NCBI GenBank assembly: GCA_003562075.1
Contig: PWWP01000140.1
Location: 1 to 45,282, forward strand
Length of the DNA stretch: 45,282 bases
From: Gemmatimonadota bacterium
GTDB taxonomy: Bacteria > Gemmatimonadota > Gemmatimonadetes > Longimicrobiales > Gaopeijiaceae
Direction of reading: 5' to 3'
The notes beneath the pieces were generated by a model. It had not been told where the DNA came from. It worked only from the letters and a program-made list of their open reading frames with translations, and did no database searches. The translations under genes and the position numbers were made by a program. Position 1 is the stretch's first letter. Every line of letters begins with the position of its first letter. Below, piece by piece: positions 29,242 to 33,958 of the stretch.

Positions 29242-29268
29242 GTGGTTCTAGCAGCCCCTTCGGGCCAG

Positions 29269-29354
29269 CGGAGGCGGAGGGACTCGAACCCCCAAGGGCG
29301 ATGAAGCCCGCCGCATTTCGAGTGCGGTGCCTTACCAATTAGGACTACGCCTCC
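29269..29354 (-). tRNA. tRNA-Ser(CGA)
   Basis: Acceptor GGAGGCG/CGCCTCC with discriminator G; anticodon loop CTCGAAA; a long variable arm marks it as class II serine. CCA is not encoded. Last gene of the array. Confidence 0.95.
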
Positions 29355-29410
29355 AGAAAACCTGGTCTTCTGGTTGAAGAGCCATGAGGGGCACCCCATG
29401 ACTATTCTCA

Positions 29411-29623
29411 GGTCGCTCTCTCCGGCTCGAACCTCCGGTTCTCATCCGGGCTCGTCCGAGAAGTCGGGCAACCTCCTTCAGTCGGGGCGCCCGGATTACC
29501 TCGCTCTTCGCTCGGTGGTCTCCGCTCGCTCCCTTCGGTCGCTCTCTCCGGCTCGAACCTCCGGTTCTCATCCGGGCTCGTCCGAGAAGTCGGGCAACCT
29601 CCTTCAGTCGGGGCGCCCGGATT
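29411..29623. repeat. 87-bp perfect direct repeat that includes the 3' end of tRNA-Pro
   Basis: Bases 29411-29497 and 29537-29623 are identical, offset by 126 bases. Each copy ends with the acceptor and part of the T-arm of tRNA-Pro(CGG); only the second continues into the intact gene. The first is therefore a tRNA 3'-end fragment with 70 bases of downstream flank. Confidence 0.9.
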
Positions 29624-29681
29624 CGAACCGGGGACCTCTGCGACCCGAACGCAGCGCTCTACCGGACTGAGCCACGCCCCG
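29608..29681 (-). tRNA. tRNA-Pro(CGG)
   Basis: Acceptor CGGGGCG/CGCCCCG with discriminator A; anticodon loop TTCGGGT in stem CTGCG/CGCAG. CCA not encoded. Its 3' end is duplicated downstream. Confidence 0.95.
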
Positions 29682-29763
29682 ATGGTTCTTGCTTCTCTGG
29701 AGGGGGAAGTCCAACGAGTCCGGACCGGCGTCCAAGCACCAATCCGGATCTCTTCGAACCAAA

Positions 29764-29847
29764 CGGACGGGGTGGGATTCGAACCCACGCGGGCGTAAAC
29801 CCACACGATTTCCAATCGTGCGCCTTAAGCCACTCGGCCACCCGTCC
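29764..29847 (-). tRNA. tRNA-Ser(GGA)
   Basis: Acceptor GGACGGG/CCCGTCC, discriminator G; anticodon loop TTGGAAA in stem CACGA/TCGTG; long variable arm (class II). Confidence 0.94.
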
Positions 29848-29859
29848 TAACACAGTAAA

Positions 29860-29945
29860 CGGAGGGGGTGGGATTCGAACCCACGAGGGCCTTTCGGCCC
29901 AACGCCTTAGCAGGGCGCCGCCTTAAGCCACTCGGCCACCCCTCC
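29860..29945 (-). tRNA. tRNA-Ser(GCT)
   Basis: Acceptor GGAGGGG/CCCCTCC, discriminator G; anticodon loop CTGCTAA; long variable arm. D-arm region GGCCGAGTGGCTTAAGGC is shared with the serine gene just downstream. Confidence 0.94.
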
Positions 29946-29959
29946 CGAAAATCGTTCAG

Positions 29960-30032
29960 TTGCCCCTCCTGGGCTCGAACCAGGACTCTCCTGTTCCAGA
30001 GACAGGCGTGTTGCCAATTACACCAAGGGGCA
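29960..30032 (-). tRNA. tRNA-Gln(CTG)
   Basis: Acceptor TGCCCCT/AGGGGCA, discriminator A; anticodon loop CTCTGGA in stem CCTGT/ACAGG. Confidence 0.95.
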
Positions 30033-30152
30033 ATGAGTCGCGCTTGATCAATCTCGAAGAAGCGCACCGGATGGTCAAATTCTCCCCATCCGCCCATCCG
30101 CTCACTTGCTCGGTTCCCATACTCCCCTTCGGGAGCGGGCGGCCGGGGCCAG

Positions 30153-30224
30153 AGCCACCAGTCGGATTTGAACCGACGACCCCGTCATTACGAATGACGT
30201 GCTCTACCCCTGAGCTATGGTGGC
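30153..30224 (-). tRNA. tRNA-Thr(CGT)
   Basis: Acceptor GCCACCA/TGGTGGC, discriminator T; anticodon loop TTCGTAA in stem CGTCA/TGACG. Confidence 0.94.
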
Positions 30225-30240
30225 GGCGACAATGGTCGAG

Positions 30241-30313
<73 letters not shown>

Positions 30314-30347
30314 TCACACCGCAGTGGACCGATCTCCGACACGTCAG

Positions 30348-30421
30348 TGGGCGCGAGAGGATTCGAACCTCTGACCTCTACGATGTCAACGTAGCGCTCT
30401 AACCAACTGAGCTACGCGCCC
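30348..30421 (-). tRNA. tRNA-Val(GAC)
   Basis: Acceptor GGGCGCG/CGCGCCC, discriminator A; anticodon loop TTGACAT in stem CTACG/CGTAG. Confidence 0.95.
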
Positions 30422-30486
30422 CTCTTCTCAACTTCGTGCCAGCCAGCGTCATATCAGACCCTGGGATCGGGATCCGGTCATCACAA

Positions 30487-30560
30487 TGCGCCCGGGAGGA
30501 CTCGAACCCCCAACCTCTTGATCCGTAGTCAAGCGCTCTATCCAATTGAGCTACGGGCGC
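30487..30560 (-). tRNA. tRNA-Arg(ACG)
   Basis: Acceptor GCGCCCG/CGGGCGC, discriminator A; anticodon loop CTACGGA in stem CTTGA/TCAAG. A34 is normally deaminated to inosine by TadA. Confidence 0.95.
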
Positions 30561-30588
30561 CCGCTTCCAATCTCAGGAGCTTCGTGAA

Positions 30589-30672
30589 TGCCCACGACAG
30601 GACTCGAACCTGTACGCCGTTTCCGGCACTGGTCCCTCAAACCAGCCTGTCTACCAATTCCAGCACGTGGGC
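30589..30672 (-). tRNA. tRNA-Leu(GAG)
   Basis: Acceptor GCCCACG/CGTGGGC, discriminator A; anticodon loop TTGAGGG in stem CTGGT/ACCAG; long variable arm (class II). Confidence 0.95.
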
Positions 30673-30750
30673 ATACCGCACTGATGCGCCCAAGTCTTAT
30701 CCGCTACGTATGTAGCAAGCGAAAAGAGCTGCTGGGCAATGGACCCACCA

Positions 30751-30834
30751 TGCTCGGGGAGGGATTCGAACCCTCACAGGGTTTCCCCCACAGGATCCTG
30801 AATCCTGCGCGTCTACCAGTTCCGCCACCCGAGC
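30751..30834 (-). tRNA. tRNA-Leu(CAG)
   Basis: Acceptor GCTCGGG/CCCGAGC, discriminator A; anticodon loop TTCAGGA in stem CAGGA/TCCTG; long variable arm. Confidence 0.95.
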
Positions 30835-30851
30835 TTCAGGGCCTACTGAAG

Positions 30852-30924
30852 TGGAGCCGAGGGGAATCGAACCCCTGACCTCCTGAATGCCATTCAGGCG
30901 CTCTCCCAACTGAGCTACGGCCCC
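30852..30924 (-). tRNA. tRNA-Ala(GGC)
   Basis: Acceptor GGGGCCG/CGGCTCC with G3-T70; anticodon loop ATGGCAT in stem CCTGA/TCAGG. Nearly the same body as tRNA-Ala(CGC) in this array. Confidence 0.95.
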
Positions 30925-30962
30925 AACTTCCAACCAGAAAACCTGGACTTTCAAAAAGCTTA

Positions 30963-31036
30963 CGGGGCTGACGGGACTCGAACCCGCGACCTCCGGTGTG
31001 ACAGACCGGCACTCTAACCAACTGAGCTACAGCCCC
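30963..31036 (-). tRNA. tRNA-Asp(GTC)
   Basis: Acceptor GGGGCTG/CAGCCCC, discriminator G; anticodon loop CTGTCAC in stem CCGGT/ACCGG. Confidence 0.95.
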
Positions 31037-31069
31037 CTACCTGCATTGTTTTTCCAACACCCTCTCCTA

Positions 31070-31141
31070 CGCCCTCACGGGGAATCGAACCCCGACCGCC
31101 ACCTTGAAAGAGTGGAGTCCTAGCCGTTAGACGATGAGGGC
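31070..31141 (-). tRNA. tRNA-Glu(TTC)
   Basis: Acceptor GCCCTCA/TGAGGGC, discriminator G; anticodon loop CTTTCAA in stem CCACT/GGTGG. The only T34 anticodon of the array. Confidence 0.95.
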
Positions 31142-31206
31142 CAATCAGCTCAAGTTCCGTGCCTGAGTCGCAGGCCGCTTCACTGGTGGCACCCGCCTGA
31201 TCTCTA

Positions 31207-31279
31207 CAGGCCCGGAGGGACTCGAACCCCCAACCGCCGGTTTTGGAGACCGGTGCTCTACCAGTTGAGCTACGGACCT
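31207..31279 (-). tRNA. tRNA-Trp(CCA)
   Basis: Acceptor AGGTCCG/CGGGCCT with one T-G pair, discriminator G; anticodon loop CTCCAAA in stem CCGGT/ACCGG. Confidence 0.95.
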
Positions 31280-31327
31280 TCGTTTGGCCTCGTGGCCGGT
31301 CCACTTCGACCCGCCATTCTCGGTTCA

Positions 31328-31400
31328 TGGCCAGGGGCGGAATCGAACCGCCGACACCACGATTTTCAGTCGTGTGCTCTACCAACTGAGCTACCTGGCC
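31328..31400 (-). tRNA. tRNA-Phe(GAA)
   Basis: Acceptor GGCCAGG/CCTGGCC, discriminator A; anticodon loop CTGAAAA in stem CACGA/TCGTG. A terminator-like hairpin ends only a few bases before its 5' end. Confidence 0.95.
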
Positions 31401-31404
31401 CAAG

Positions 31405-31438
31405 AAAAACCGCCTGGCCCCTTGCGGAGCGCAGGCGG
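31405..31438 (-). terminator. Terminator-like hairpin between initiator tRNA-Met and tRNA-Phe
   Basis: On the minus strand CCGCCTG (31432-31438) pairs with CAGGCGG (31410-31416), then TTTTT (31405-31409). Mature tRNA-Phe starts at 31400. It could end the tRNA-Met transcript or attenuate read-through into the 16-gene array. Confidence 0.55.
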
Positions 31439-31700
31439 GATGTTGTGTCCCGGCGGAGCGTCGTCTCCTCTACCGGTTCATCCCGCCCTTCAGGACAGCC
31501 TGGCTAGACCAGGTATCAGCTTGCAGCCAGATCGGCACTCGAGAACGGCTGGCAATCCCTTTCACTTCGCCTCCTCTCAGCGCGATCAACGAACGTGTCT
31601 GCGATCCCTGGGTCGCCGAGTCGACCTTCTCCTCGAGTCAACTCTTCCCTAAATGAGCAAGCGCCGCCGTCGGCGACGCTCAGTCCGGCTCTCAAACTAA
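31439..31700. other. Gap inside the tRNA cluster
   Basis: About 260 bases between the hairpin and the initiator tRNA gene. A lone TTGACT on the minus strand (31638-31643) has no matching -10 at the right distance, and no gene or tRNA was found. Confidence 0.5.
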
Positions 31701-31774
<74 letters not shown>

Positions 31775-31786
31775 ACAAGGACACCA

Positions 31787-31815
31787 ACTATACCCCTGCC
31801 TGAGAGGGGTGTCAA
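31787..31815 (-). promoter_or_regulatory. Sigma-70-type promoter of the tRNA cluster
   Basis: On the minus strand a perfect TTGACA (31810-31815), a 17-base spacer and TATAGT (31787-31792). Transcription would start about 6 bases before mature tRNA-fMet. It is the best promoter match in the window. Confidence 0.9.
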
Positions 31816-32062
31816 CCCTCTCCAAGCAACTTTTCGAATCAACCCGCCAGCCCATGCTCAACGCCTACCCGCCAATGGCTGCACCGGGTCCGCCCGGGCC
31901 CTCGCAGAGGTTGAGTCAAGGGTGCAGTAGCGTTGACCGGCTTGAGGGGGAATCCGTCCGAATCTCAGGCCTCCAAGCGGGGCAGTGGCGCCGGACTCCA
32001 TCTCGCGTCCCCATGATCAGGACAACCGACCGGTCCGTCCAAGTTATTGTGATACCAGATCT

Positions 32063-32328
32063 TATAATGTTTTCGTAGGCCAGCTGATCAAGCGTTCTGG
32101 AAGAAATGTTGTCCAGCCACGCAACATTCACCGGCTTTCGATAGTCTCATATCATGTAAACCAAAGTCAGAAGGGAAGGGCGATCGACGGAGCCCGGAAC
32201 GAAGCAACTCGCTCCGGGTCCGTCGACAAAGCTGGACTACCCATCCTCCTGGCTCGAAAAACTCAGAATCTGATCGGCGAGTCCACCTCGCGTCCGCGAG
32301 TTGTGGAATTGCCTTTTTCGAAGGAGAT
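32063..32328 (+). promoter_or_regulatory. -10 element and structured leader of the atypical regulator gene
   Basis: TATAAT at 32063-32068 has only a poor -35. The following 260 bases are less GC-rich and contain two stems: AATGTTG (32105-32111) with CAACATT (32122-32128), and a long stem TCGACGGA-G-CCCGGA (32184-32198) with TCCGGG-T-CCGTCGA (32213-32226) broken by one bulge and a mismatch. The leader ends with AAGGAG about 10 bases before the ATG at 32335. No known riboswitch class is recognised; it may also hide an independent small RNA. The stretch 31816-32062 before it holds nothing I can name. Confidence 0.4.
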
Positions 32329-32334
32329 ACCTGG

Positions 32335-33123
32335 ATGATCGCGGCAACCGGAACGGCAGAGGCGTTCAAGGAGCGAGCAACTCCGAACCTGACAGAGCGC
32401 TCGCCGACCGCAGGGCATGAGAACTCGATGCTTCTGGTCGGTCTTGAACGTCTGGCCCCCCCGCTCATCGCCGGATTCGAGGCCGAAGGTGTCCGGACCC
32501 TGGCCACCGATAGTGACGAAGAAGCCCTTCTGGTGAGCCAGCGTCACCGGCCCCGGCTCATACTCGTGGGGCAGGAGTCACTGGCTGACCCCCTGGCGGT
32601 GGTCCATGATATCCGGGCAGTTCATCCAGGCGCGTGCATCCTCTTCCTGGCCTCGAGCACGGACCCTGAGCCCGCGCTGGAAGCCATGGCACAGGGCGCC
32701 GACGACATCGTACCGCCCCCGCACTCCGTCTCCTCCGTCCTCCTTCGCGCCAGAATTCTCCAACGCCGAGAACAAGGGGTGGGAGGAGGGCGACAAGGTA
32801 GCCGGCAACCGGCATCGAACCGGCTCGTCATCGACCGCCTCTCCCGAACCGTGTTGGATGGAAAGGGCCCCGTGGCCCTGACTGGCCGGGAGTTCGAACT
32901 CCTGGAGCGTCTTCTGGAAGCCAATGGGCAGGTCGTACCTCGGGGCCAGATCCTGGCGGATATCTGGGGGCAGGATCAAGATAATGAGGCGGTTCTTGAC
33001 GCCACGGTCCACAGGCTTCGGCGTAAGCTGGAGGACGACCCTGGACAACCTACAATCCTCACCACCGTCCGAGGGGTAGGTTATCGGTTGGCGGTTCAGC
33101 ACATCCGCTTGACCGGGAGCTGA
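32335..33123 (+). CDS. Atypical OmpR-family regulator with a degenerate receiver
   Basis: A 262-residue protein with a receiver-like fold (about 31-145) and an OmpR-type winged helix (about 160-255: LTGREFELLERLLEANGQVV, then TVHRLRRKLEDDP and GVGYRL). The receiver keeps the shape and the GADD stretch, but every residue needed for phosphorylation is gone: the acidic pair is Gly36-Leu37, the phosphoacceptor position is Gly79 (LILVGQES), and the Lys of KPF is Pro (PPPH). It therefore probably acts without phosphate transfer, perhaps by ligand or dimerisation. AAGGAG upstream decides the start. There is no kinase nearby, and tRNA-Pro(GGG) follows after 46 bases with one shared terminator. Targets unknown. 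Confidence 0.88.
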   Translation: MIAATGTAEAFKERATPNLTERSPTAGHENSMLLVGLERLAPPLIAGFEAEGVRTLATDSDEEALLVSQRHRPRLILVGQESLADPLAVVHDIRAVHPGACILFLASSTDPEPALEAMAQGADDIVPPPHSVSSVLLRARILQRREQGVGGGRQGSRQPASNRLVIDRLSRTVLDGKGPVALTGREFELLERLLEANGQVVPRGQILADIWGQDQDNEAVLDATVHRLRRKLEDDPGQPTILTTVRGVGYRLAVQHIRLTGS

Positions 33124-33169
33124 AACGCATCTTGAGGACGCGCTCCTCCGACGTTACCTTCTTCCGTCT

Positions 33170-33243
33170 CGGGACGTGGCGCAGTCCGGTAGCGCACTGC
33201 AATGGGGTTGCAGGGGTCGCCGGTTCGAATCCGGCCGTCCCGA
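33170..33243 (+). tRNA. tRNA-Pro(GGG)
   Basis: Acceptor CGGGACG/CGTCCCG, discriminator A; anticodon loop ATGGGGT in stem CTGCA/TGCAG. The only plus-strand tRNA here; likely in one transcript with the regulator upstream. Confidence 0.95.
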
Positions 33244-33291
33244 CTCTTCAAGGTACTCAGTATGAGAACCGCGAAACCCCGGAAGATCAAT

Positions 33292-33338
33292 AATGAGAAG
33301 GCCCGGCAAGGCATTTCGCCTTGCCGGGCCTTCTCATT
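33292..33338 (+). terminator. Strong intrinsic terminator after tRNA-Pro(GGG)
   Basis: A perfect stem of 21 bp (core GAGAAGGCCCGGCAAGGC, 33295-33312, with its complement at 33318-33335, extended by AAT/ATT) around loop ATTTC, followed by TT. It can work in both directions. Confidence 0.9.
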
Positions 33339-33958
33339 TTGAGAGCGGAGACAACCTGAAAGTCTCGCTTTGAAAGAGGATCTTGTCGCAGTCTGTCACA
33401 GTGTGGAGACCGCCTCCCCCTCAGACGGGGCCCGGGGGGAATCGATGCGGTTCATCGATGATCGCCGGGACGTCTGCGGGGTCGAGCCGATCTGCCGGGT
33501 CATCCCGATCGCCTGGTTGACTTACTGCGCAGAGAAGGCATTGCAGCGGGACCCGGGCCGTCGATCAGCCCGTGCGGGATGGGATTCTGGCCCCCAACTC
33601 CAGACCCAACCGCTCCTGGGACGGGATGGAGGAGAACCCAGAGCTTCACACGGCCCATCCACGCTGAACTGAGCACCCGCCGCAGGATCGAGCCCTCCGC
33701 CGGACTGGACCTTCAGTACAATATCACCCCGAGCCTGCGAACGGCCGTAACGATGAATACCGGGTTCCACTGGCTGACCATGAGCTGGCCTCTCATACTT
33801 CCTTCAGGCTACCCTCCACCGATCAGCCTACGCTTCCCGTCGGGAGGCGGCTGGCCGGCAACACGAACCACGATGACTCTTCCCTTCCGGTAAGGATGCC
33901 CGGTGTCATGCTCGCCTCCCCCCCTTCCATCCACCTTCGTGTTCCCAGGCTCCAGCTC
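33339..33958. other. Gene-poor stretch before the S12 hydrolase
   Basis: About 620 bases without an intact gene. Apart from the remnant at 33675-33775, it contains no stem-loop, repeat or convincing promoter that I can identify. The hydrolase frame is open from 33896, but its signal peptide starts at 33959. Confidence 0.5.
33675..33775 (+). pseudogene. Remnant resembling the middle of a DUF5916-type protein
   Basis: The plus frame reads RIEPSAGLDLQYNITPSL followed by RTAVTMNTGF. It resembles the DUF5916 stretch in which a short beta-segment (AG-x-DLKYG-x-T-x-x-LT) leads to a T-x-N-x-DF motif. Family character stops after about 32 codons and no start or end can be assigned. It lies on the same strand as the N-terminal-type remnant 7 kb upstream. 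The match is from memory. Confidence 0.35.

Follow-up and report, generated by a model that had tools for sequence, protein, structure and literature searches.

The analysed stretch of DNA, hereafter the window, covers 45,282 nucleotides of a Gemmatimonadota genome, whose 3.6-Mb assembly is fragmented into 351 contigs. An open reading frame at 32335-33123 of the + strand, preceded by an AAGGAG Shine-Dalgarno sequence, codes for a protein of 262 residues. Based on the reading frame, Pfam, alignment with its orthologs, AlphaFold2 and Foldseek, this protein is assigned as an aspartate-less (pseudo-receiver) OmpR/PhoB-type transcription regulator. No kinase gene is seen adjoining it. A tRNA-Pro(GGG) gene starts 46 bases past the regulator stop codon, at 33170-33244 (+ strand; ARAGORN, Rfam tRNA score of 62.3 bits), as was reported in the initial annotation of this locus. 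The latter also described correctly the 17 tRNA genes present on the opposite strand (29268-31775) and their promoter at 31787-31815. The first gene of this array, at 31700-31775, is a tRNA-Met(CAT), of the initiator type (fMet) according to its 5' sequence, and the remaining 16 (29268-31400) are Phe, Trp, Glu, Asp, Ala, Leu, Leu, Arg, Val, Ala, Thr, Gln, Ser, Ser, Pro(CGG) and Ser. The array also carries an exact 87-bp duplication (29411-29497 and 29537-29623, 126 bp apart), which includes the 3'-terminal 17 nt of tRNA-Pro(CGG) (29607-29681, - strand) and about 70 nt beyond.

The regulator is composed of a receiver domain (residues ~31-148), a linker (~149-161) and a winged helix (~163-255). 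The C-terminal domain is recognized by Pfam as an intact winged helix of the OmpR/PhoB type (Trans_reg_C, PF00486, E=1.4e-23, 83 bits against a cut-off of 26). The N-terminal match to Response_reg (E=0.055) remains under the Pfam gathering score, and the receiver fold is recovered by structure prediction and comparison. Indeed, the AlphaFold2 model, generated with six orthologs as input (mean pLDDT of 78.7), displays a complete (beta-alpha)5 pattern, with pLDDT of about 86-93 in the receiver, as well as the secondary structure of a winged helix. The top Foldseek matches to this model are RpaA, KdpE, MtrA and PrrA, and the atypical regulators CosR, RitR and HP1043 are also among the matches. 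The alignments with RpaA and KdpE extend over the full length of the model. For the Foldseek matches as a whole, the full-length TM-scores are low (0.3-0.5).

Within the Gemmatimonadota family of the window, for which 121 genomes were screened with a sequence profile, eight orthologs of the regulator were retrieved at 238-396 bits, the next match being at 142 bits. Extension of the search to the order level (154 genomes) did not provide any further ortholog, and a phylum-wide sample of 395 genomes gave seven, every one inside this single family, with none outside it at E 1e-45. Those close relatives of the genome that carry a name are metagenome-assembled Gemmatimonadota genomes, two of them from the sample series CSSed16-2cmA. 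The weaker matches within the family were considered as possible tRNA-less orthologs and were ruled out, being canonical OmpR proteins that carry the Asp and the Lys. In three genomes of the same genus (G001, G003 and G004), both the fMet and the Pro(GGG) tRNA genes are missing at the threshold used, so the absence of the regulator there may reflect an assembly gap rather than a loss.

To assign the receiver residues, we used two canonical OmpR paralogs from the same window as reference. The resulting alignment places G36-L37 at the acidic pair, G79 at the phospho-acceptor Asp and P128 at the conserved Lys, in full agreement with the substitutions listed in the initial annotation. The protein consequently has a receiver fold without phospho-acceptor Asp. 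Replacement of the first acidic residue by Gly and of the Lys by Pro is common to all eight orthologs, the phospho-Asp position is occupied by Gly in seven and by Leu in one, and none of them retains the residues of a phosphorylatable regulator. The earlier proposal of a phosphorylation-dead regulator, judged by sequence, therefore holds for 8/8 orthologs. In addition, the Pro-Pro-His motif (P128, P129, H130), G36, D124 and R138 are invariant.

In all eight genomes, the ortholog is flanked on one side by a divergent tRNA array led by fMet and on the other by tRNA-Pro(GGG), which lies downstream on the same strand as the regulator after a gap of 33-128 bp. Relatives with the regulator and no tRNA gene beside it, initially put forward as the observation that would speak against the pairing, do not occur among these eight. 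Since the same gene, residue losses and neighbours are found in seven other genomes, the association noticed in the window is not due to chance. For the converse comparison, family genomes were searched for both the fMet and the Pro(GGG) tRNA genes. In 22 genomes lacking the regulator, these two genes lie head to head, 108-320 bp apart, a distance too short to accommodate the regulator. Longer spacers without regulator ortholog exist in a few further genomes, and those examined contain unrelated genes, for instance, for MgtC/DUF4010 proteins, glutamate dehydrogenase or fatty acid desaturase. These head-to-head pairs and other spacer genes indicate that the tRNA pair is kept more widely than the regulator, which is one among several occupants of the spacer. 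Each ortholog keeps its tRNA-Pro, but the tRNA without the regulator is common, and the orthologs belong to one family only.

MgtC/DUF4010-type genes recur in G127, G125 and G089 (L134, L135 and L138), which belong to another branch, and are truncated in two of them; from this recurrence, the fMet-Pro spacer looks like a site of gene gain and loss. G016 is the sole ortholog locus with an additional gene in the spacer, where an amidase gene broken by a run of N (L136:1568-2761) separates the regulator from the fMet array. At the ortholog locus of G019 (L008:2364-2531), two additional copies of the 3'-terminal ~17 nt of tRNA-Pro(GGG) (AATCCGGCCGTCCCGA) follow the gene, with a spacing of 68 and 72 bp, and resemble the repeats by tRNA-Pro(CGG) in the window.

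Collectively, these data lead us to a main reading to which we attribute a probability of roughly 0.7: the regulator is an orphan transcription factor of the OmpR/PhoB family that works independently of phosphorylation and has a (pseudo-)receiver lacking the aspartate, and its placement is due to the tRNA locus. In this family, tRNA-Pro(GGG) and the fMet array are kept as divergent neighbours, each behind a promoter of its own as judged by sequence, and in the eight known species the regulator lies in the spacer that separates them.

The history of the gene was addressed with an rpoB tree of 29 genomes, in which the regulator-positive genomes are found in both halves of the family. The regulator tree is compatible with it: as in the rpoB tree, G000 is grouped with G002 as well as with G025 and G112, and G008 with G096. 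An old, clade-restricted gene that has been lost several times fits these data best, and the regulator was lost, or never present, in many of the family members lacking it. Horizontal transfer, with recombination through the flanking tRNA genes, could instead have spread the regulator. The patchy distribution, which requires at least five changes on the rpoB tree, would be explained in this way, as would the presence of unrelated genes (MgtC/DUF4010, glutamate dehydrogenase, desaturase, amidase) in the same spacer of other lineages. Nevertheless, the groupings shared by the two trees and the deep divergence of the regulator argue against it, and neither integrase nor terminal repeats were seen at 31776-33345, so that we regard transfer as unlikely, while still deserving some weight beside inheritance with repeated loss.

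The initial annotation assigned the regulator and tRNA-Pro(GGG) to one unit. A sigma70-like promoter, overlooked at that time, is predicted at 33132-33160 (+ strand), entirely between the regulator stop codon and the tRNA: the -35 box TTGAGG (33132-33137) is separated by a 17-nt spacer from the -10 box TACCTT (33155-33160), which ends about 10 nt ahead of the tRNA. The form TTGAGN-N16-18-TANNTT occurs at this fixed position in 7/8 loci with the regulator and in the majority of those without it. When scored at >=7/12 matches, with 9-14 nt separating the -10 element from the tRNA, it was detected in 25/41 family loci versus 4/1271 control windows, taken from the 200 bp upstream; the copy in the window is only moderate, with 7/12 matches. 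The distance from the -35 box to the regulator stop codon is no more than a few bases in several of the loci with the regulator. At the G016 locus, where the gap reaches 128 bp, no promoter was seen at the fixed position. The occurrence of a position-fixed promoter suggests that the tRNA-Pro transcript is most likely its own and that this gene is most likely an independent transcription unit.

Downstream of the tRNA, the hairpin scan revealed a 20-bp hairpin followed by TTTTG on the + strand (about 33293-33337), likely a terminator shared by tRNA-Pro and regulator read-through. This hairpin is symmetric and the terminator scan scored it on the - strand only; an equivalent is present at the G002 ortholog locus. 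The single strong terminator proposed earlier for both genes is thereby supported, with no terminator-like site called between them in the scan. Consequently, read-through from the regulator into tRNA-Pro is likely: regulator transcripts would probably run into the tRNA and stop at its terminator, while tRNA-Pro would be independent of them. Such read-through transcripts are expected to be cut by RNase P at the 5' end of the tRNA. Hence, the idea of a single unit stands as far as the gene order, kept in 8/8 genomes, and the likely read-through are concerned, but not for tRNA-Pro itself, which has its own promoter. An obligate operon, with a promoterless tRNA never found without the regulator, does not correspond to this promoter, identified by sequence, nor to the 22 regulator-less pairs.

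The array on the other side of the spacer is preceded by a near-consensus promoter, TTGACA-N17-TATAGT (31787-31815, - strand; promoter scan), with the same architecture in relatives. TTGACA with a C-rich spacer is found in all eight regulator genomes, and the promoter has the same form in the regulator-less G027, G113 and G031. Nothing at the tRNA array thus points to an operator found in regulator genomes only, and this candidate was ruled out. In the window and in relatives, the spacer between -35 and -10 often contains a C-run and then a G-run (ACCCC...GGGGT), which occurs with and without the regulator and is possibly a site for another factor.

Could the regulator and tRNA-Pro(GGG) nonetheless form a functional unit, in which the regulator tunes its own transcript and the supply of tRNA-Pro, or controls the fMet array, negatively or positively, from the other side of the spacer? 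The preserved order of fMet array, regulator and tRNA-Pro in 8/8 genomes, always with the regulator and tRNA-Pro on the same strand, leaves room for such a link, and the missing terminator between the two genes and the common form of the fMet promoter in the regulator genomes point in the same direction. On the other hand, the same tRNA pair exists without the regulator in 22 relatives, tRNA-Pro has a promoter of its own, the fMet promoter is unchanged where the regulator is missing, and tRNA synteny alone accounts for the conserved place. We therefore hold a functional unit to be improbable, and the earlier suggestion that the regulator is tied to tRNA supply is not sustained. The link is most likely only a matter of neighbourhood, and a conserved tRNA locus, whose genes possess their own promoters, accounts for the adjacency as well as for the common strand and terminator.

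The region upstream of the regulator gave few indications on its own control. A weak candidate promoter, TTCACC-N17-TATCAT, was detected by promoter scan at 32127-32155 (+ strand), 179 nt ahead of the ATG; it is not conserved, and comparison of the ortholog upstream regions did not reveal any conserved regulator promoter. The sequence AATGTTG-N10-CAACATT (32105-32128), which abuts the candidate -35 and is the sole copy in the genome assembly, could be an autoregulatory site. CAACATT also precedes the orthologs of G002 and G025. In G025, it is part of a tandem repeat of 36 bp that is itself unique in that genome, and its CAACATT-N9-TCAAGC match is found nowhere else there. An operator common to all eight orthologs was ruled out, the shared upstream k-mers not exceeding those of shuffles. 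Since CAACATT is found upstream of 3/8 orthologs and is absent in the other five, and the k-mers show no such excess, the candidate site is a lead only. A search of eight genomes with the two composite motifs yielded no further site, so no regulon can be proposed.

The degenerate receiver might also be that of a canonical response regulator in decay and heading for loss. The missing catalytic residues, the poor conservation of the N-terminal 30 residues and of the linker, and the patchy presence of the gene would agree with this, but the reading frame is intact in 8/8 orthologs, identical replacements (G36, P128, P129, H130) are fixed over deep divergences, and pairwise dN/dS is well under 1 for both domains (the receiver gives ~0.19-0.42 and the DNA-binding domain ~0.06-0.18, rough values with dS near saturation), which makes decay very improbable. 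The conserved residue losses, together with these ratios, indicate instead a conserved regulator whose predicted lack of phosphorylation is a fixed trait of the whole small family under purifying selection.

As for the working of this phosphorylation-independent factor, the regulator would most likely dimerize via its receiver and bind DNA without a phosphoryl signal. Constitutive dimerization is plausible because no kinase gene is seen adjacent and R138 and D124 belong to the dimerization region of OmpR-type receivers. Activity would be set by the amount of the regulator, probably via autoregulation, or by a ligand or a partner. We give hardly any credence to a more elaborate scheme, in which a ligand would bind in a pocket made up of the Gly-rich loop standing in for the acidic pair (VGLGR/VGLER) and of the invariant Pro-Pro-His loop, and the regulator would respond to a metabolite or to the state of the cell by tuning the fMet-led array or its own transcript reading into tRNA-Pro(GGG); if true, it would mean control of translation capacity by a pseudo-receiver.

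Many atypical regulators dimerize and bind DNA without phosphate, being controlled by their amount, partners, redox or ligands (PMC12632262; PMC4395418). Aspartate-less receiver regulators (ALRs) account for ~2% of REC-OmpR proteins (PMC4395418), and Glu is their commonest residue at the phospho-Asp position (PMC12632262). HP1043 of H. pylori, CosR of C. jejuni, ChxR of C. trachomatis and RitR of S. pneumoniae share with our regulator the two-domain OmpR/PhoB layout, a degenerate phosphorylation site and the lack of a cognate kinase nearby. The regulator is not orthologous to these ALRs (21-26% identity by Foldseek), is confined to one Gemmatimonadota family, and differs from them by Gly at the phospho-Asp position, the Gly-Leu acidic pair, Pro in place of Lys and the invariant Pro-Pro-His. 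Orthology to HP1043/CosR, in particular, was ruled out, with 21-23% identity (Foldseek) and higher scores for canonical regulators. The canonical OmpR/PhoB proteins (RpaA, KdpE, MtrA, PrrA, RegX3), which have an equally intact winged helix, are its nearest solved structures by fold and sequence profile, whereas every catalytic residue of its receiver is replaced and Response_reg falls below the Pfam cut-off. The locus also resembles coding genes that read into a downstream tRNA, with both genes on the same strand, no terminator between them and a hairpin after both, except that, in this case, the tRNA is served by a separate promoter and is retained by relatives that lack the upstream gene. 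We found no literature on a pseudo-receiver regulator together with a tRNA gene.

The regulator thus joins a known class, the aspartate-less OmpR regulators, as a new member with a signature of its own. It represents an undescribed, deeply diverged ALR clade with fixed features, namely, Gly for Asp, Pro for Lys and the invariant Pro-Pro-His, and this clade is useful for asking how pseudo-receivers get switched. Furthermore, an adjacency of regulator and tRNA that is conserved in every ortholog can arise from tRNA synteny, and the informative test is the converse comparison, with the same tRNA pair and the regulator missing.
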